From Rhodanobacter denitrificans (lineage in GTDB: Bacteria; Pseudomonadota; Gammaproteobacteria; Xanthomonadales; Rhodanobacteraceae), in assembly GCA_017848855.1 (NCBI GenBank), contig JAFIHF010000066.1, positions 1 to 45,707 on the forward strand: 45,707 nucleotides of DNA, given 5' to 3'. The notes beneath the pieces were generated by a model. It did no database searches and was not told the origin of the DNA. It saw nothing but the letters and a program-made list of their open reading frames with translations. The translations under genes were made by a program, and so were the position numbers. Positions within the stretch are counted from its first letter, which is position 1. The number at the start of each line of letters is the position of its first letter. This document shows positions 2,905 to 41,157 of the stretch, one piece after another.

Positions 2905-3434
2905 ACCGCAACTACACCGACGATCCCGACCACGACTACGGCCCCACCCGCACCCAGCAGCGCCGCGACGCGCTGGCGGTGCTGGAGCTGGCCGGCCAGT
3001 TGGTCGAGCTGCCGCCGACGCGGCTCGCGAAGCTGGAGCTGCCCGACGACGTGCGCGACGAGATCGCCAACGTGCGCCGCATCAGCTCGCACATCGCGCG
3101 CAAGCGCCAGTTGGCCTTCCTCGCCAAGCTGATGCGCCGCCACGACAGCACGGCGTTCGACGCGGTGCGCGCCGCGCTGGGCGAAAACCGCGACCGCCAG
3201 CGCCAGGAGACCGCCGCGATGCATCGGCTGGAAGCGCTGCGCGAACGCCTGCTCGGCGAGGACGGCGACACCGCGGCTTCCGAGCTGATCGCCCAGCACC
3301 CCGACATCGACCGCCAGCACCTGCGCGCGCTGATCCGCCAGGCGCGCGTGGAGCAGGCCACGCCGAACAAGCCGCCGCGCGCCTTCCGCGAGCTGTTCCA
3401 GCTGCTGAAGGCGCTGCAGGAAAGCGACGCGTAG
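2901..3434 (+). CDS. darP: DarP/YjgA, 50S ribosome maturation protein (DUF615)
   Basis: A 177-residue DUF615 protein. The E. coli homologue YjgA/DarP (183 residues) binds late 50S assembly intermediates. Family features visible here are the acidic N-terminus followed by SRTQ/RTQQRRDALAVLELA, the LPPTRLAKLELPDDVRDEI segment, the AHKARKRQ-like box ISSHIARKRQLAFLAKLMR, and the C-terminal helix RAFRELFQLLKAL. The start ATG overlaps the stop of the preceding DUF1653 gene by 4 nt. It ends at a strong REP palindrome shared with the convergent Nudix/ThiE gene. Confidence 0.94.
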   Translation: MNRNYTDDPDHDYGPTRTQQRRDALAVLELAGQLVELPPTRLAKLELPDDVRDEIANVRRISSHIARKRQLAFLAKLMRRHDSTAFDAVRAALGENRDRQRQETAAMHRLEALRERLLGEDGDTAASELIAQHPDIDRQHLRALIRQARVEQATPNKPPRAFRELFQLLKALQESDA

Positions 3435-3436
3435 GC

Positions 3437-3467
3437 GCGCACCCCCGGATCAAGTCCGGGGGTGCGC
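3437..3467. repeat. REP palindrome between convergent genes (family GTAGGAGCGCACC)
   Basis: A perfect 13-bp stem (GCGCACCCCCGGA) around loop TCAAG. It is continuous on the minus strand with GTAGGAGCGCACC, whose TAG is the stop codon of the Nudix/ThiE gene (3470-3472). A near-identical palindrome lies at 40651-40687. It has no U-tract, but its position between convergent genes suits a transcript-end or mRNA-protecting structure. Confidence 0.85.
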
Positions 3468-3469
3468 TC

Positions 3470-4423
3470 CTACAGCTCGGACCAGAAACCGCGGATTCCC
3501 GCCACGCCCTGCGCGCCCATCGCACGCGCTTGTGCCAGTTGCGCCGGCGCCATGCCGCCCAGTGCATACACCGGCATCGCGGCCGCCTCTGCCAGCGCCC
3601 GGAAATTCGACCAGCCCAACGGCGCGGCCTGCGGATGGCTGGCGGTGGCCGCCACCGGCGACAGCGTGGCGAAATCCGCCGCCAGCCGCAGCGCCTGCGC
3701 CAGTTGCGCGGCATCGTGGCAGCTCGCGCCGACGACTTGCTGCAAGGGCAGTGGCCGCTCGCGCAGCGTGGCCAGCTGCGCGCCGGTCAGCTGCACGCCG
3801 ATGCCCAACGCCCGCGCGCCTTCGATGTCCGCATTGAGCAGCAGTTGCGCGCCGTGCTCGCGCGCCAGCGGCCGCAGCGCGGCAGCCAACTCGCGCACGC
3901 TTTCGCGCGGCCACCGCGGCAGGCGCAGTTGCACCAGCCGCTCCCCCGCCGCGATGGCGCGGCTGATCCGTTCGAACCAGGGACCACGCTCGGCCGGCGA
4001 CACCTCGGCCGGCGTGATCAGGTAATGCGGCGGCAGGCGCAGCGCCTGCAGGATCGCGCGGTCGGCCGGCGCCAGTGTCGCCGGATCCGCCTGCGCCGGC
4101 AGGCACCATTGCAGGCCCTGTCCTTCCAGCGAGCGCGGCTCGCCCCGCCACTGCGTCACGCACCAGGCGTCCAGCAGCAGTTCGCGTTCGTGGTAGCGCC
4201 AGGGCACGCGGATCAGCGGCGCGGCCTCGACCAGCGCGATGCCCAGCTCCTCGTCCAGCTCGCGCGCCAGCGCCGCCAGCGGCGTCTCGCCGGGCTCCAG
4301 CTTGCCGCCGGGGAATTCCCACAGCCCCGCCAGGTGCTTGCCGGCGGGGCGCTCGGCCAGCAGCACGCGACCCGCACGGTCGCGCAGCGCGCCGGCCAGC
4401 ACATGCAGCGGCGCGCCAGCCAC
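3470..4423 (-). CDS. Nudix hydrolase fused to thiamine-phosphate-synthase-like domain
   Basis: A 317-residue two-domain protein. Residues 1-130 are a MutT-type Nudix domain with a complete Nudix box at about 40-62 (GKLEPGE, then RELDEELGI), implying hydrolysis of oxidised (d)NTPs or similar. Residues about 145-317 resemble ThiE (VQLRLP, LLLNAD, GVQLTG, VGASCHD, PVYALGG), but the phosphate and metal motifs are degenerate, so synthase activity is doubtful. The same MutT/ThiE fusion is known in other gammaproteobacteria. No ATG fits; a GTG at 4423, 7 nt after the folA stop, gives the usual length and suggests an operon with folA. Its TAG stop comes from a REP element. Confidence 0.88.
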   Translation of the reverse strand: MAGAPLHVLAGALRDRAGRVLLAERPAGKHLAGLWEFPGGKLEPGETPLAALARELDEELGIALVEAAPLIRVPWRYHERELLLDAWCVTQWRGEPRSLEGQGLQWCLPAQADPATLAPADRAILQALRLPPHYLITPAEVSPAERGPWFERISRAIAAGERLVQLRLPRWPRESVRELAAALRPLAREHGAQLLLNADIEGARALGIGVQLTGAQLATLRERPLPLQQVVGASCHDAAQLAQALRLAADFATLSPVAATASHPQAAPLGWSNFRALAEAAAMPVYALGGMAPAQLAQARAMGAQGVAGIRGFWSEL

Positions 4424-4430
4424 GATCGGA

Positions 4431-4919
4431 TCAGCCGCCGCGCACGTACTCGACCATGTCGAACTCGTAGGCGTGCTCGGCATCCTTCGCGTGGTGCACG
4501 CGCGAGACCTCGGTCCAGTCGCTGAAGTGCACGCCGGGGAAGAAGGTGTCCGCGCCGTCCACCGCCGCGCTGACCCAGGTGAGGTACAAGCGGCGCGCCA
4601 TCGGCAGCGCCTCGCGGAACACCTGGCCGCCGCCGATCACCATCAGCCCGGTATGCCCGCACAGGGTTTGCGCCTCGTCGATCGAGCGCACGGTGATCTG
4701 GCCGGGGAACGGCGCCTCGTGCCGGCGCGACAACACCAGGTTGGTGCGCTCCGGCAGCGCCTTGCCGATCGACACCGCGGTGTTGTAGCCCATCAGCACG
4801 TACTTGCCCACGGTGAGCTGCTTGAACCAGCGCAGGTCGTCCGGCAGGTGCCAGGGCAGATGTCCCTTGCGGCCGATGGCGAAGTTCTCGTCGAGGGCAG
4901 CGATCAGCGAAATGGCCAT
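4431..4919 (-). CDS. folA: Dihydrofolate reductase
   Basis: A 162-residue DHFR that reduces dihydrofolate to tetrahydrofolate with NADPH in the cytoplasm. The catalytic acid is Asp27 in the LPWHLPDDLRWFK motif, the position used in E. coli. The Met20-loop equivalent (IGRKGHLPW) and the NADPH-binding IGGGQVF motif are present. It follows thyA, whose product regenerates the DHFR substrate, after about 240 nt filled by an array of hairpins (5016-5171). The first base of the Nudix/ThiE start is 7 nt beyond its stop. Confidence 0.97.
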   Translation of the reverse strand: MAISLIAALDENFAIGRKGHLPWHLPDDLRWFKQLTVGKYVLMGYNTAVSIGKALPERTNLVLSRRHEAPFPGQITVRSIDEAQTLCGHTGLMVIGGGQVFREALPMARRLYLTWVSAAVDGADTFFPGVHFSDWTEVSRVHHAKDAEHAYEFDMVEYVRGG

Positions 4920-5015: not shown

Positions 5016-5171
5016 GCCTGGAAAGGGCTGTCCTGCCCTTTCCAGGCTCGCCCAGCCCGGGCAAGCCGGGCTGGGCTCCGCCATTCGATCGCAGAGCGAT
5101 CGAATGGCGTGCGATCCATCCGTGGATCGTGGCGGTGTAGCCGCTTGCCGCAGGCAAGCGGCTACACCGCC
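5016..5171. repeat. Array of five perfect hairpins between thyA and folA
   Basis: Five back-to-back palindromes fill the gap: 5016-5047 (13-bp stem, loop TGTCCT), 5050-5076 (11 bp, loop GCAAG), 5080-5108 (13 bp, loop AGA), 5112-5129 (7 bp, loop TCCG) and 5131-5171 (19 bp, 3-nt loop). The last one contains the thyA TAG stop codon in one arm. On the minus strand, the sense of thyA-folA, the first and fourth loops read AGGACA and CGGA. The first four match the plan of the element at 28846-28960. There is no U-tract, so it is not an obvious intrinsic terminator. Confidence 0.85.
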
Positions 5172-5956
5172 ACCGGCGCCTTGATCGCCGGGTACGGGTC
5201 GTAGCCCTCGATCATGACGTCCTCGTAACGGAAATCCTCCAGCGTGCGCACGTTCGGGTTCAACACCAGCTTCGGCAGGGCGCGCGGCTCGCGCGTGAGC
5301 TGCAGCCGCGCCTGCTCCACATGGTTGCTGTACAGGTGCGCGTCGCCCAGCGTGTGCACGAAGTCGCCCACGCCCAGGCCGCAGACCTGCGCCACCATGT
5401 GGGTGAGCAGTGCGTAGCTGGCGATGTTGAACGGCACGCCGAGGAAGATGTCGCCGCTGCGCTGGTAGAGCTGGCAGCTCAATTTCCCGTCTGCAACGTA
5501 GAACTGGAACAGCGTGTGGCAGGGCATCAGCGCCATCTTCGGCAGCTCGCCCACGTTCCAGGCGCTGACGATCAGCCGGCGCGAGTCGGGGTTGCGGCGG
5601 ATCTCGTCCACCACCCAGCGGATCTGGTCCACCGCGCCGCCGTCGGCGGTGGGCCAAGCGCGCCACTGCCTGCCGTAGACCGGGCCGAGGTTGCCGTCGG
5701 CATCCGCCCATTCGTCCCAGATGCTGACGCCGTGTTGCTTCAGGTAGGCGATGTTGGTGTCGCCGCGCAGGAACCAGATCAGCTCGTGGATGATGGACTT
5801 GGTGTGCAGCTTCTTGGTGGTGAGCAGCGGAAAGCCGTCGGCGAGGTTGTAGCGCATCTGCCAGCCGAACACGCTGCGCGTGCCGGTGCCGGTGCGATCC
5901 ATCTTCTCCGTGCCGTGCTCCAGCACGTGGCGCAACAGGTCGAGGTAAGGCTTCAT
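5162..5956 (-). CDS. thyA: Thymidylate synthase
   Basis: A 264-residue ThyA, the same length as E. coli ThyA. It methylates dUMP to dTMP using methylenetetrahydrofolate. The N-terminal phosphate-binding arginine segment ([12 protein letters not shown]), the catalytic cysteine in [11 protein letters not shown] (near residue 146), and the folate/dUMP loop ([22 protein letters not shown]) are all present. The start ATG overlaps the lgt stop in ATGA, the familiar lgt-thyA coupling. The last codons and TAG stop lie inside the 19-bp hairpin 5131-5171. Confidence 0.98.
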
Positions 5957-6855
5957 TTCCCGTCCTTGCTCGGCATCGCCACGGTGTACAGGCGCAACGT
6001 GGGCGCGCGCCGCGACAGCCACAGCAGCCACAGGCCCACGGCGATCAGCGGCAGCGAGAGGATCTGTCCCATCGTCAGCCAGCCGAACGCGAGGTAGCCG
6101 AGCTGGATGTCCGGCAGGCGCACGAACTCCACCGCGAAGCGGAAGCAGCCGTACATCAGCGCGAACAGGCCGGAGATCAGATAACGCGGCCGCGGCTTCA
6201 TCGACACCAGCCACAGCACCGCGAACATCACCACGCCTTCCAGCACCATCTCGTACAGCTGCGAGGGCTGGCGCGCCAAGCCGCCGAACTGCGCCAGCTG
6301 CGCCTGCCAGGCCGGGTGCGCCGCCGCATACGTCACGTCCTCGCCGTGCGAATGCGGGAAGATCATGCCCCACGGCAGCTGCGTGGGCTTACCCCACAGT
6401 TCGCCGTTGATGAAGTTGCCCAGCCGCCCCAGGCCCAGGCCGATCGGCACCAGCGGCGCCACGAAATCCACCGTGTCGAAGAAGTGCAGCTGCTGCCGGC
6501 GCGACCACCACAGCCCCGCCGCCAGCACGCCGAGCAGGCCGCCGTGGAAGCTCATGCCGCCGTCCCACACGCGGAACAGCGCCAGCGGGTCGGTCCAGAT
6601 CCAGCGCAGGCCGCCGGCGTAATAGAACAGCATGTAGCCGATCCGCCCGCCCACGATCACGCCCATCATGCCGTAGAAGAACAGGTCGCTCAGCGCGTCG
6701 CGCGTCACCGGCAAGCGTCCGCAACGTCGCCGGTACTCGCCCAGCACCGCCGCGCTGAAAAAACCCACGAGGTACATCAGCCCGTACCAGTGCACCTGCA
6801 CCGGACCGAGGTGGAAGGCGATGGGATCGATGTTGACGACGAGAGGCTGCGTCAT
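5953..6855 (-). CDS. lgt: Prolipoprotein diacylglyceryl transferase
   Basis: A 300-residue inner-membrane Lgt, which transfers diacylglycerol from phosphatidylglycerol to the lipobox cysteine of prolipoproteins. The Lgt signature [13 protein letters not shown] is intact, as are the HGGLLG motif and about seven hydrophobic segments. It is first in the lgt-thyA(-folA) unit. A substrate class visible nearby is LemA (17178-17798), with an LTGC lipobox. It is divergent from the S9 peptidase gene; about 140 bp separate the starts. Confidence 0.97.
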
Positions 6856-28184: not shown

Positions 28185-28826
28185 TCAGGCGAAGCCGTGC
28201 TGCTTGAGGAACGCCTCATCCAGCTTCGGCGCGTCGCCGCCATCGATCAGCCGCTCCACGTAGCGCGCGATCACGTCCACCTCGATATTCACCGCGTCGC
28301 CCGCGCGGCGCGCGTGGAAAGCGGTGTGTTCGACGGTGTGCGGGATCAGGTTGACGCCGAAATGCGTGCCGGCGACTTCGTTGACGGTGAGGCTGGTGCC
28401 GTCGATGCACACCGAGCCCTTGGCGGCGATGTAGCGCGCCAAGTTCGCCGGCACCTCGAAGGTCCAGCGCTGCGAGCGGCCGTCGGGCGTCACCGAAACC
28501 ACCTTGCCGAGACCATCGACATGGCCGGAGACGAGGTGCCCGCCCAGGCGGTCGGCGAGGCGCAGCGCCTTCTCCAGGTTCACCGGGTCGCCGGCCTTGA
28601 GCTGGCCCAGCGTGGTGAGCGACAGCGTTTCGTTGGAGACATCGGCGGCAAAGCCGCGCGCGGAAAGCGCCACCGCGGTGAGGCACACGCCGGAGACGGC
28701 GATGGAGTCGCCGAGCTGCACGTCGGCGAGGTCGAGGTCGGCGGTGTCGACGTGCAGGCGCAGGTCGCCGCCGCGCGGTTCGAGCCGCGCCACGCGACCC
28801 ACGGACTGGATGATGCCGGTGAACAT
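28185..28826 (-). CDS. ribE: Riboflavin synthase, alpha chain
   Basis: A 213-residue RibE, dismutating 6,7-dimethyl-8-ribityllumazine to riboflavin. It is a tandem lumazine-binding protein: MFTGIIQSVGRVARLE opens the first barrel, with SIAVSGVCLTAV; the second has LVSGHVDGLG, GSVCIDGTSLTVNEV and LIPHTVEHTAF. The start is unambiguous from MFTGI. Its leader carries an FMN riboswitch (29082-29250), a four-hairpin element with a T-tract palindrome ending 20 nt before the ATG, and a possible 60-codon upstream ORF whose TGA overlaps this ATG. ribH is not adjacent. Confidence 0.96.
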   Translation of the reverse strand: MFTGIIQSVGRVARLEPRGGDLRLHVDTADLDLADVQLGDSIAVSGVCLTAVALSARGFAADVSNETLSLTTLGQLKAGDPVNLEKALRLADRLGGHLVSGHVDGLGKVVSVTPDGRSQRWTFEVPANLARYIAAKGSVCIDGTSLTVNEVAGTHFGVNLIPHTVEHTAFHARRAGDAVNIEVDVIARYVERLIDGGDAPKLDEAFLKQHGFA

Positions 28827-29008
28827 CAGCACACGCCCCCAGATGCTCGAAAAAACGCCTTCCTGGCGTTTTTTCGAGTCGCCGAGTCCGGCACATGTCC
28901 GGACTCGGCTCCGCCGATCAAGCGCAGACACGCTTGATCGCGGGCAACACATCCCGGTGTTGCATTCCACGCGGGGATGGCGCGTGGCGCGATGGCAGCT
29001 TGGATCAT
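28826..29008 (-). CDS. Possible 60-codon leader ORF in the ribE leader
   Basis: An ORF with ATG at 29008, preceded by GGAGAA at an 8-nt spacing, whose TGA shares one base with the ribE ATG (TGATG). That geometry would couple it to ribE. The peptide (MIQAAIAPRAIPAW... ending FFRASGGVC) resembles no family I know, and most of it is read through the hairpin element 28846-28960, so its codons may simply be repeat sequence. Treat as a hypothesis: either a translated leader that opens the hairpins, or chance. Confidence 0.25.
   Translation of the reverse strand: MIQAAIAPRAIPAWNATPGCVARDQACLRLIGGAESGHVPDSATRKNARKAFFRASGGVC
28846..28960 (-). repeat. Four-hairpin structured element in the ribE leader, with terminator-like first palindrome
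   Basis: Consecutive palindromes: 28846-28878 (14-bp perfect stem with an A6/T6 run, loop AGGAA on the minus strand), a 10-bp stem CCGAGTCCGG around 28882-28908, a 9-bp stem GATCAAGCG around 28918-28941, and a 7-bp stem GCAACAC ending about 28963 (minus-strand loop CGGGAT). The first ends in a T-tract in both directions and can act as an intrinsic terminator 20 nt before ribE. Loops and linkers match those of 5016-5129 while the stems do not. Confidence 0.8.
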
Positions 29009-29081
29009 GAAACGTTCTCCACGGATACGGGCGAGAACGCCTCAAGGCATGAGGCCGATGCGCGCAAGGCGCGCGTCGAAC

Positions 29082-29250
29082 CGTCTTCTTTCATCCGGAC
29101 TGTGAGCCGCCCCGGCGAACCGGAACAGCCTTACCGTCGGCTCCGGCATCGGACCGGATCTGCTGACCCTTCACCGGACGGCGAAGGCGCTCGCGGGCTC
29201 GCCTCGAAAGGCCTACCGCCGGTGGGGAATTCCGCCCCGCCCTGAAGACG
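29082..29250 (-). ncRNA. FMN riboswitch (RFN element)
   Basis: Read on the minus strand, the conserved RFN blocks appear in order: GGAATTCCCCACCGGCGGTA, AGCCCGCGAGCG, CAGATCCGGT, GCCGACGGTAAGG and AGTCCGGATGAAAGAAGA. The P1 helix closes as CGTCTTC (29244-29250) with GAAGACG (29082-29088). FMN binding represses riboflavin gene expression. It sits between ribD and ribE, so it governs ribE and probably ribBX but not ribD. It ends about 256 nt before the ribE start, so the expression platform is either the hairpin near ribE or a translational one at the leader ORF. Confidence 0.95.
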
Positions 29251-29335
29251 CTTGCCGGCGAACCGGCGCGCGCAGTCTAGCACCTGTGCCGGCGCCTCTC
29301 CCGATGCACCGGCGAAACGCTGCGTGCACGCGCCG

Positions 29336-30532
29336 TCAGCATGCCGGACGCAAGCGCAGGCGCAGGTCCTGCCCCAGCATGCGCTGGTCGTGCAGGCGCA
29401 GCCGCCAGCGCGAGGCCATGTCCGCCAGCGGCGGCAGCGCAAACAGGGGGCGCGCGGTGTCGCCCAGCAGCAACGGGGCGACGTAGAGCAGCAGTTCGTC
29501 GACCAGGCCGGCGGCGAACAGGGCGCCGCACAGCGTGGGGCCGGCTTCGACGTGCAGCTCGTTGACGCCGCGCGCAGCGAGCAGGGACAGCACGGTGGCG
29601 AGATCGAGGGCGCCGCCCTGCTCCGCCACGGCGGCGAGTTCGGCTTGCGCGTAGCGCTTGTCGGCGCACGAGGCACTGGGGCCGTGCAGCACCAGGGTGG
29701 GGGCGCTGCCGTCCAGTACGTGGCTGCCGGCGGGGGTGCGGAGTTGGCGGTCCAGCACTACGCGGAGCGGAGCGAAAGCCGCCCCCTCACCCAACCCTCT
29801 CCCCCAAGCATGCTTGGGGGAGAGGGCTTGAAAAGCCCCCTCTCCCCCAGCAGTGCTGGGGGAGAGGGTTGGGGTGAGGGGGGCTTTTTCGTGAGCCAAG
29901 CGCACGGTAAGCCGCGGATCGTCGGCCAGCACGGTGCCGCTGCCGGTGAGGATGGCGCTGCTGCGCGCACGCCAGCGCTGCACGTCGGCGCGGGCCGCTT
30001 CGCCGGTGATCCATTTCGACTCGCCGTTGGCCAGCGCGGTGCGGCCGTCCAGGCTCATCGCCAGCTTCACCCGCACAAACGGGCGGCCGCGTTCGAGGCG
30101 GCTGAAGAAGCCGCAGTTGAGTTCGCGCGCCTCGTCGCGCAGCAGACCGGCATCCACCACGATGCCGGCGGCGCGCAGCTTTTCGATGCCGCGGCCGGCC
30201 ACCTGCGGGAACGGGTCTTCCGCGGCGATCACCACGCGCGCCACGCCGGCAGCGACCAGTGCATCCGCGCAGGGCGGCGTGCGGCCGTGGTGGGCGCAGG
30301 GCTCCAGCGTCACGTAGGCGGTGGCGCCGCGCGCGCGCGCGCCGGCCTCGCGCAGGGCAAACACCTCGGCATGCGGCTCGCCGGCGCGCCGGTGCCAACC
30401 GCTGCCGACCACCGCGTCGCCGTGCGCGACCACGCAGCCCACGCGGGGGTTCGGCTGGGTGGTGAACAGGCCGCGTTCGGCGAGGCGCAGTGCGTGCGCC
30501 ATGTGGACGTGGTCGGTGGCGGTGAAGCTCAT
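29336..30532 (-). CDS. ribD: Bifunctional riboflavin deaminase/reductase RibD carrying an in-frame REP insertion
   Basis: A 398-residue RibD, performing the second and third steps of riboflavin synthesis. The deaminase domain has the zinc ligands in HAEVFAL and EPCAHHGRTPPC. The reductase domain has KLAMSLDGRTA, SKWITG and VLADDPRLTVR, then resumes with PLRVVLDRQLRTP and HVEAGPTLCGALF. Between LTVR and PLRVVLD lie about 35 extra residues (about 216-250, TPTLSPSTAGGEG...) encoded by a double palindromic repeat (29782-29886); E. coli RibD has 367 residues. The start is at MSFTATDHVHM; the open frame upstream reads through another REP. Whether the insert disturbs activity is unknown. Confidence 0.93.
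   Translation of the reverse strand: MSFTATDHVHMAHALRLAERGLFTTQPNPRVGCVVAHGDAVVGSGWHRRAGEPHAEVFALREAGARARGATAYVTLEPCAHHGRTPPCADALVAAGVARVVIAAEDPFPQVAGRGIEKLRAAGIVVDAGLLRDEARELNCGFFSRLERGRPFVRVKLAMSLDGRTALANGESKWITGEAARADVQRWRARSSAILTGSGTVLADDPRLTVRLAHEKAPLTPTLSPSTAGGEGAFQALSPKHAWGRGLGEGAAFAPLRVVLDRQLRTPAGSHVLDGSAPTLVLHGPSASCADKRYAQAELAAVAEQGGALDLATVLSLLAARGVNELHVEAGPTLCGALFAAGLVDELLLYVAPLLLGDTARPLFALPPLADMASRWRLRLHDQRMLGQDLRLRLRPAC
29782..29886. repeat. REP pair (CCCTCTCCCCC family) inside ribD
   Basis: Two palindromes, a perfect 16-bp dyad at 29795-29826 and a 15-bp stem at 29838-29868, are flanked by CCCCTCACCC and GGGTTGGGGTGAGGGG. The same family is extragenic at 30541, 30637, 34559, 34689, 40400, 45081 and 45405. 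Here it lies within a coding sequence and keeps the frame. Confidence 0.92.
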
Positions 30533-30540
30533 GCTGGTCT

Positions 30541-30675
30541 TCCTCTCCCCTCCGGGGAGAGGACTGAGGTGAGGGGACGGACTTGCGTCAACTCCACATC
30601 GAAACATGCTTCGAACACACGCCAAGGCGAGAGTGTCCCCTCACCCCAACCCTCTCACCGCAGGGGAGAGAGGGC
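30541..30675. repeat. REP elements of the CCCTCTCCCC family between ribD and nrdR
   Basis: One hairpin, CCTCTCCCC-TCC-GGGGAGAGG, with the trailing TGAGGTGAGGGG block lies just upstream of ribD. A second, partial one (CCCCTCACCCCAACCCTCTC...GGGGAGAGAGG, about 30637-30675) lies just downstream of nrdR in opposite orientation, so the pair frames the intergenic gap. Confidence 0.85.
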
Positions 30676-34528: not shown

Positions 34529-34740
34529 GGGACTCGGGACTCGGGACTCGGGAAAAGCCTCCCCCCTCACCCCGGCCCTCTCCCCCAAGCGGAGCTTGGG
34601 GGAGAGGGAGACAAGCTTGAGCCACCTGCTTCTTCTCCTTCTTCCTCGGCCCAGCCCGCTTGAACTTCCTCCCCTCAGCCTCGCCGCTTGAACTCCCTCT
34701 CCCCCGGCTCCGCCGGGGGAGAGGGTTGGGGTGAGGGGGA
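34529..34740. repeat. Repeat cluster between ettA and pyrF
   Basis: Three GGGACTC heptamers with flank AAAAGCC (34529-34556) are followed by a CCCTCTCCCCC palindrome (about 34566-34612) and a second, CCCTCTCCCCCGGCTCCGCCG-type palindrome with trailing TTGGGGTGAGGGG (about 34697-34740). No gene is visible; pyrF's ribosome-binding site follows. Confidence 0.88.
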
Positions 34741-40639: not shown

Positions 40640-40650
40640 AGCTGCTTGCA

Positions 40651-40687
40651 GGAGCGCACCCCCGGATCAAGTCCGGGGGTGCGCTCC
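40651..40687. repeat. REP palindrome at the rimI stop codon
   Basis: A perfect 16-bp stem (GGAGCGCACCCCCGGA) with loop TCAAG, nearly identical to 3437-3467. On the minus strand it continues as GTAGGAGCGCACC with TAG as the rimI stop. Confidence 0.9.
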
Positions 40688-41157
40688 TACGGACGAATCT
40701 CGGGAAGCTCCATCACAATCGCATCCTCCCGCCCCTCCTTCGCCGGGTAGTAGCGCGGCCGCCGGCCGATCTCGCGAAAACCCACCGACTCGTACAGCGC
40801 CTTCGCCAACGGGTTCGACGGCCGCACTTCCAGGAACACGCGCTGCGCGCCGCTCCAGCGCGCCACGTCCAGCAGGCGGCTCAGCAGGTGCCGGCCCAGG
40901 CCGCGCCCGCGGTAGTCGGGGGCGATGCAAATGTTGAGCACGTGCGCCTCGCCCGCGCCCACCGACAGCACGCCGTAGCCGGCCACCTCCTCGTCGATGC
41001 ACAGCACCCAGCACGGATGTCCGGCCTTGAGGCAGTCGGCGAAGATGCCGCGCGTCCACGGGAAGTCGTAGGACGCCTGCTCCACCGCCGCGACCGCGTC
41101 GAGGTCGTCCATGCGCATCAGGCGCATGTGGCTGGCCGGTTTGGCCACCGCGACCAT
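40687..41157 (-). CDS. rimI: Ribosomal protein bS18 N-alpha-acetyltransferase
   Basis: A 156-residue GNAT acetyltransferase matching RimI, which acetylates the N-terminus of ribosomal protein S18. The acetyl-CoA loop IAPDYRGRGLGRHLL, preceded by HVLNICI, and the C-terminal FLEVRPSNPLAKALYESVGFREIGRRPRYYP are typical. It starts 5 nt after the holD-like stop with GGGAG upstream, reproducing the E. coli holD-rimI pairing. Its TAG stop is supplied by the REP at 40651. Confidence 0.93.
   Translation of the reverse strand: MVAVAKPASHMRLMRMDDLDAVAAVEQASYDFPWTRGIFADCLKAGHPCWVLCIDEEVAGYGVLSVGAGEAHVLNICIAPDYRGRGLGRHLLSRLLDVARWSGAQRVFLEVRPSNPLAKALYESVGFREIGRRPRYYPAKEGREDAIVMELPEIRP

Follow-up and report, generated by a model that had tools for sequence, protein, structure and literature searches.

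The four-hairpin element studied here is likeliest to be one copy of a gammaproteobacterial structured-RNA repeat family, carried on the minus strand of the window (the whole analysed stretch of DNA, 45,707 nt). As to its role, we assign a probability of roughly 0.5 to a transposon-derived 3'-UTR RNA whose GGA hairpins, of the RsmA/CsrA type, would dock RsmA/CsrA. Copies of the family follow one hairpin plan with GA linkers, and most of them have GGA in loops 4 and 1; their stems change in a strongly compensatory manner, in the genus of the source genome they mostly lie in sense orientation just past stop codons, and they are conserved at orthologous loci.

Architecture of the two window copies

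The source genome, from a genus of soil bacteria, is a 3.49-Mb draft in which the window is contig C32. Two four-hairpin chains occur in the window; scores in the following list are those of R1, a covariance model built from nine copies.

4431..4919, minus strand: folA, dihydrofolate reductase (PF00186)
5016..5129, minus strand: four-hairpin element, thyA-folA copy (R1 match 5016-5130, 116.3 bits, E 3.5e-20; R1 seed)
5016..5047, minus strand: stem 1, thyA copy (loop AGGACA, GGA 5031-5033)
5112..5129, minus strand: stem 4, thyA copy (loop CGGA, GGA 5119-5121)
5129..5173, minus strand: stem 0, thyA copy, a perfect 21-bp hairpin (arms 5129-5149/5153-5173), absent from the initial annotation
5162..6373, minus strand: thyA reading frame (PF00303; thymidylate synthase domain from about 5950)
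28185..28826, minus strand: ribE, riboflavin synthase (TIGR00187, NF006767)
28846..28963, minus strand: four-hairpin element, ribE-leader copy (R1 105.1 bits, E 6e-18; R1 seed)
28846..28878, minus strand: stem 1, ribE copy (loop AGGAA, GGA 28861-28863)
28881..28909, minus strand: stem 2, ribE copy
28915..28940, minus strand: stem 3, ribE copy (loop variable)
28944..28963, minus strand: stem 4, ribE copy (loop CGGGAU, GGA 28952-28954)
29079..29253, minus strand: FMN riboswitch preceding the ribE copy (Rfam RF00050, 95.9 bits)
29336..30625, minus strand: ribD-like gene upstream of the riboswitch (PF01872, PF00383)

The ribE copy lies between the FMN riboswitch and the ribE start codon (28826), which is 19 nt past the element. 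The closest ThyA proteins (86-92%) come from Frateuria, Fulvimonas, Dyella, Rhodanobacter and one MAG.

Read along the minus strand, the element runs from stem 4 through stems 3 and 2 to stem 1. Stems 4 and 3 are usually separated by 0-3 nt, and the two linkers that follow are mostly GA; loop 4 is like A-N-GGA-U and loop 1 like AGGA. The element is about 115 nt long, rising to roughly 145-170 nt once stem 0 and the ends are counted. Perfect stems in the ribE copy pair 28846-28859 with 28865-28878 (stem 1), 28881-28891 with 28899-28909 (stem 2), 28915-28924 with 28931-28940 (stem 3), and 28944-28950 with 28957-28963 (stem 4). The corresponding stems 1 to 4 of the thyA copy pair 5016-5028 with 5035-5047, 5050-5060 with 5066-5076, 5079-5092 with 5096-5109, and 5112-5118 with 5123-5129 (sequence and fold). 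Stem 0 of this copy draws on its host gene, as its 5' arm is composed of the last 9 coding nt of thyA, the TAG stop (5162-5164) and 9 nt beyond. Against 200 dinucleotide shuffles, the minimum free energy of the RNA fold stands at z = -9.1 for the ribE copy and z = -13.3 for the thyA copy including stem 0, and at least four such hairpins were found in 1 of 3000 random 122-nt windows (67 own-genome loci).

Both copies were found where the initial annotation had placed them, with all stems perfect, and it was right in describing common loops and linkers joined to different stems, as well as GGA exposed in loops 1 and 4 of both copies on the minus strand. What it took for an invariant linker, GGCTCCGCC, consists mostly of paired stem ends flanking a 2-nt linker (GA in the RNA sense), and the AGA that it reported in loop 3 is not conserved among other copies.

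Copy number and spread

Searching the source genome with R1 gave 30 matches, from 124 to 51 bits with the weakest partly degenerate, supplying the further copies of the loop and linker plan on which the initial annotation had made its claim depend; a further 14 rows, lower in the ranking, are apparently antisense shadows or fragments. Every one of the 70 exact GGCTCCGCC sites in this genome was covered, by 67 stretches and the window. Eight of the sites coincide with later model matches, and one more copy lies beside one of them; these nine copies are the seeds of R1. Among relatives, R1 matched 26 of 41 genomes, including 14 of the 15 from the genus at 2-37 matches each (shadows counted). A second model, R2, built from 102 copies, matched at E<=1e-6 in 60 of 117 genomes and 17 of 26 genera of the taxonomic family and in 8 of 143 genomes of a class-wide sample, the source genome among them; these figures are lower bounds, as filters were stricter and candidates limited. 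A plasmid search with a distant copy as query gave no match. In genus g28, a high-scoring copy sits between ribF and ileS (L332 and L334; two genomes read), with exactly one match in five of the six g28 genomes listed and none in the sixth.

Genus-wide counts given below refer to 103 copies from 11 genomes, leaving out the short locus L103 and about 20 genus R1 matches (by eye) that were not among the loci used. Loci L345-L350 and L354-L361 were scanned solely for end motifs or for copies in G035, a genome of another family of the same order.

Covariation and RNA strand

The compensatory pairing first proposed from two copies extends, above both shuffles and slid controls, to 43 of 44 stem pairs with double changes among 102 aligned copies. 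Standard pairs fill 96.5% of the pair cells; these figures benefit from an alignment that had been fitted to the structure. Double-change cells number 1107, compared with 307 in shuffles (score 0.663 vs 0.186), six slid versions of the alignment score at most 0.099, and none of 500 shuffles attains the values observed.

Stem mismatches in distinct hairpins, read on the minus-type strand of the 103 copies, comprise 71 G-U and 27 A-C, as counted with a hairpin finder restricted to Watson-Crick pairs that treats G-U and A-C alike. The ratio is 48:18 in the three best-sampled genomes (79 copies), 17:4 in the source genome, 12:9 in low-scoring additions, and 6:8 in stem 0, and the same G-U excess (19:4) is found in the 20 of 103 copies that are not sense to the upstream gene. 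Copies for this count were gathered with an RNA model, and the recount left out three G011/G002 match rows that lacked loci or were judged to be shadows. The original description as a structured nucleic acid holds with respect to covariation, and the 71:27 ratio narrows it toward an RNA of the minus strand. We regard the G-U excess as good, not final, evidence for RNA; non-template C-to-T deamination linked to transcription could alone favour G-U. The element most likely acts as RNA.

Transposon origin

The descent of the family from a miniature inverted-repeat transposon, which went unseen in the initial annotation, is well supported by 4-nt target duplications and IS5-like ends in the young copies of G035. 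This genome contains 42 matches, with 15 near-identical among the matches listed. The 4-nt flanks are identical on both sides in 12 of 17 copies with readable ends and distinct flanks, and the duplicated tetranucleotides are of five kinds (CTAG, TTAG, CTAA, CTGG and ATAG). Re-pairing the flanks gave a mean of 4.0 identical and reached 12 in 0 of 20000 trials. This set excludes two copies whose ends could not be located and one whose flank is repeated, and the test covers the G035 copies, not those of the window. The duplications strengthen the case for origin, not for function.

Element copies in G035 end in TAGCAGGCTGTTGAGAAA and TAGCAC(N)TTGTTGAGAAA, and the ends of an IS in the same genome, TAGCACGCTGTTGAGAAA and TAGCAGGTTGTTGAGAA, each resemble one element end. 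The IS is an IS5-family element of 1.3 kb that is flanked by CTAG and encodes a transposase (NF033581, E 1e-77). With terminal inverted repeats in common and target-site duplication, the G035 copies have the features of an IS5-type MITE. An intact IS5 partner was present in one of eight genomes searched, as a single copy beside a contig end and also beside a fragment resembling an element copy; it was not found in G000. A broken, related IS5-type transposase with three stops and 53% identity lies in L365 (G002:C1:2358327-2358818). In genome G027, locus L200 holds five copies head to tail with a period of about 130 nt. Outside the left end of copies L186 and L190-L193, and in the right IS flank in L344, we noted the common flank GG(G/A)ACACCACAC; some G035 copies may sit inside another repeat.

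Placement behind stop codons and conservation at orthologous loci

The upstream gene has the same sense as the element in 83 of the 103 genus copies, and for 78 of these 83, stem 4 begins at most 42 nt past the stop codon, with slight overlap of the stop in 7. Both neighbours are on the opposite strand in 17 copies, 3 copies lie in divergent gaps, and the downstream gene runs in the same direction in 59, according to gene calls from a home-made codon score rather than an annotation pipeline. Host genes identified by profile include thyA, ffh (followed by rpsP, L072), infB (followed by rbfA) and tsf, and, from partial sequences, parE and tamA. Young G035 copies are placed differently, with a gene pointing in for 8 of 17 and a divergent position for 6 of 17 by rough gene calls (Fisher p 0.005 and 0.0002, respectively, compared with the genus), and genus placement therefore looks like the product of selection or selective loss.

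Different species have 21 locus clusters in common, at which stems swap in pairs: double Watson-Crick changes number 540, and single changes lead to G-U in 74 cases, A-C in 35 and other mismatches in 32. The closely related G007 and G011 differ by 15 double and 11 single changes, and 157 of 316 stem comparisons between orthologues show a change of length or register.

Stem 0 overlaps the host stop codon in 36 of the 78 sense copies compared with 7 of 260 control genes, the control windows being somewhat wider than the element windows, which favours the control. It reaches up to 16 nt into the host coding sequence, and where species have unlike coding ends the 3' arm can vary to match, as at thyA (GTGTAG/CTACAC vs GTATAG/CTATAC). 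Insertion at a YTAR target was considered as a cause of the stop-codon position. Hosts end in TGA, TAG and TAA in 55, 15 and 8 cases (n=78) and background genes in 147, 30 and 23 (n=200); because TAG and TAA are not enriched in genus hosts, YTAR insertion does not explain the position.

A search of 56 out of 80 ThyA loci with R1 (MAGs included, some cut short) gave 0 matches at E<=0.01, and several of these 56 element-free loci retain the GGCGGTGTAG host arm. Since the thyA element is present in G000, G007 and G011, the insertion looks lineage-specific, and an old, shared regulation of thyA is contradicted by the lack of an element in the 56 relatives' loci searched.

GGA loops and RsmA/CsrA

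Exactly four hairpins could be resolved in 85 of the 103 copies, and loops were counted in these, the other 18 being left out. With the closing pair included, 79 of the 85 carry GGA in loop 4 and 76 carry it in loop 1, compared with a single copy for loop 2 and none for loop 3, and the same copies contain 36, 74, 70 and 76 distinct 5' arms for stems 4, 3, 2 and 1. Both GGA loops are present in 9 of 9 R1 seeds, which were chosen by linker, stem 2 or hairpin chain and not by loops 1 and 4. Twelve copies from other genera were inspected by eye; all 12 have GGA in loop 4 and 11 have it in loop 1, with L333 carrying it in loop 4 and lacking it in loop 1. Among these 12, the eight that come from outside the order (seven genomes, found with R2) have it in both loops (8 of 8). 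Conservation in the 85 and in the distant copies is partly ascertained, as the models were trained on GGA loops.

CsrA/RsmA prefers an A-N-GGA-U hairpin loop on a GC stem, and the loop counts place GGA in hairpin loops of this type. A CsrA gene is present in 38 of the 41 genomes. Simple bridging by CsrA uses site spacings shorter than about 90 nt, and the two GGA loops, about 90 nt apart in sequence, exceed that spacing. Two fixed loops on otherwise free rods are what an RsmA/CsrA site would be expected to look like, and docking of RsmA/CsrA is the likeliest function, with binding inferred from these features.

Relation to known RNA and repeat families

The sponge RNAs CsrB, RsmY and RsmZ carry several GGA hairpins on stems, but the element differs from them in occurring as many dispersed copies adjoining genes. 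Among sponge RNAs in Rfam, the only match was RsmW on L104, at chance level (25.6 bits, E 3.2). The window copies match no Rfam family, and a search of the window at gathering thresholds returned solely the FMN riboswitch; the rpfG RNA (RF03023) scored 23.3 bits (E 0.59), which is chance level. Element copies had no Rfam match to TwoAYGGAY RNA, although Rfam 15 may hold no TwoAYGGAY model.

The statement that the element has no named family stands for the window copies and requires qualification for distant ones, which match TD-2 and gyrA RNA below gathering scores. The TD-2 consensus (RF03162) has an AUGGAU-loop hairpin, a GCGAGU...ACUCG hairpin and an ACGGAU-loop hairpin, and the five tandem L200 copies match the full model at 38.1-43.1 bits. 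These scores are nevertheless below the gathering score of 48.7, the first TD-2 hairpin falls on stem 3 rather than on the GGA-bearing stem 4, and the window copies give no TD-2 match at E<=5. The gyrA RNA of Pseudomonas (RF01740) resembles the element in its pair of hairpins, which are spaced as stems 2 and 1 are and joined by the same CGAG-type linker, and matches L204, L335 and L333 at 37.1, 35.1 and 27.5 bits (alignment inspected for L335). Yet these matches are below the gathering score of 45, the model spans half of the element, and the window copies have no match. By the cut-offs of the two models, the element belongs to neither; we suspect from the likenesses that both are its kin. In the available portion of its source, gyrA RNA is tabulated for Pseudomonas only (PMC2864571).

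RsmU of Xanthomonas campestris is described, in the part of the report available, as an RsmA-binding RNA that derives from a 3' UTR and carries three or four GGA motifs, and its GGA mutant still bound RsmA (PMC7694677). RsmU is a single locus, in contrast to the many copies of the element, and the comparison is one of partial description, not of sequence. Correia/NEMIS, ERIC and BOX are reported in the available sections of two sources to be small transposon-like repeats that are co-transcribed with genes and fold in RNA; in one pneumococcal genome, 36 annotated CDSs have a stop codon encoded by BOX (PMC2229807, PMC3049150). Those sections make no mention of a GGA-loop plan or of paired stem replacement (PMC2229807, PMC3049150). 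The element is not described in the titles and abstract beginnings listed for literature on CsrA RNAs, REP/MITE, or Xanthomonas/Lysobacter and Rhodanobacter/Dyella repeats.

Proposed mechanism and alternative explanations

An element lying behind a gene would be transcribed with the mRNA of that gene, and its two rigidly held GGA hairpins (loops 4 and 1) would dock RsmA/CsrA; RsmA could then protect, process or regulate the docked 3' UTR or intercistronic spacer, and may in turn be titrated by the copies taken together. The stems would serve as interchangeable rods, free in sequence while pairing holds, with arms probably renewed by concerted (template-switch) change together with selection. 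A fuller version, which we offer tentatively and at well below even odds, would see a mobile two-GGA RsmA/CsrA platform spread across many gammaproteobacterial families and domesticated in the genus as post-stop modules that control tens of genes or operons and form a distributed RsmA sponge, with stems rewritten by palindrome turnover, often into the host stop.

Docking of RsmA/CsrA must be weighed against a generic stabiliser or processing site of mRNA 3' ends and spacers (similar to REP, ERIC or Correia), in which the hairpins would stop 3' exonucleases or be cleaved by RNase III or RNase E, leading to unequal operon expression without RsmA. We consider this possible, if rather unlikely: it agrees with sites just past stops and between thyA-folA, ffh-rpsP, infB-rbfA and ribF-ileS (g28) and with the very stable folds (z -9.1 and -13.3), and in the available text ERIC repeats are reported to act in this way (PMC2229807), but it has no need for GGA in two particular loops, and it is compatible with RsmA docking. 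Transcription termination by stem 1 and a U tract appears very improbable for the family. In the ribE copy, a GC tip is followed by six U (CGCC-AGGAA-GGCG-UUUUUU), a possible terminator that could function in that copy; across the family, however, the 3' arm of stem 1 has a T-run of at least 4 in 23 of 85 copies and of at least 5 in 9 of 85, which falls short of a family trait, and in 59 of 103 copies the gene downstream runs the same way as the element.

The copies might instead be passive DNA palindromes, that is, dead miniature transposons without RNA function whose arms are kept by template-switch (quasipalindrome) correction. The predominance of double over single changes (540 to 141 among orthologues, 15 to 11 in G007-G011), the differences in length or register in 157 of 316 stem comparisons, and the extension of stem 0, which has no G-U bias (6:8), as far as 16 nt into the coding sequence of its host are all consistent with such palindromes, as is a thyA site that is element-free in 56 relatives, several of which retain the GGCGGTGTAG host arm. 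Passive palindromes nonetheless leave unexplained the presence of GGA in loops 1 and 4 but not 2 and 3, the G-U excess of stems 1-4, and the post-stop sense placement in the genus as opposed to the mixed placement of young copies, and we regard them as unlikely.

If RsmA/CsrA docking is true, transposition is a way of wiring RsmA/CsrA regulons, and TD-2 and gyrA RNA, two unexplained Rfam families, may belong together in a single mobile RNA family. A hairpin that remains at the same locus with many of its stem letters replaced is a natural experiment on stem turnover, and such loci allow concerted palindrome change to be measured against RNA selection. The stop codon within a hairpin raises a possible link to termination and mRNA decay.

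Other repeat families

A second repeat family, found genome-wide in G000, is made of units some 55-65 nt long that frequently stand in tandem and have two GGA-loop hairpins each (GCGGCCATGGATGGCCGC followed by GCGATCAGGGATGATCGC; loci L022:2783-2954, L066:1186-1399, L317, L321, L330 and L331). The sequence GCCATGGATGGC, allowing at most 1 mismatch, occurs 204 times (first-family copies counted) compared with 7 for a reversed control. A third family (L314, L315, L318, L322, L326 and L329) contains the same CCATGGATGG hairpin within a CCCTCTCCCC...GAGGAGCGAGGAAGAGGG frame. In the window, REP-like hairpins with arms ending in GCGCACCCCCGGA are found at 3431-3473 and 40650-40688, and long palindromes of the CCCTCTCCCCC type, perhaps the frame of the third family, at 29773-29891 and 34576-34608.
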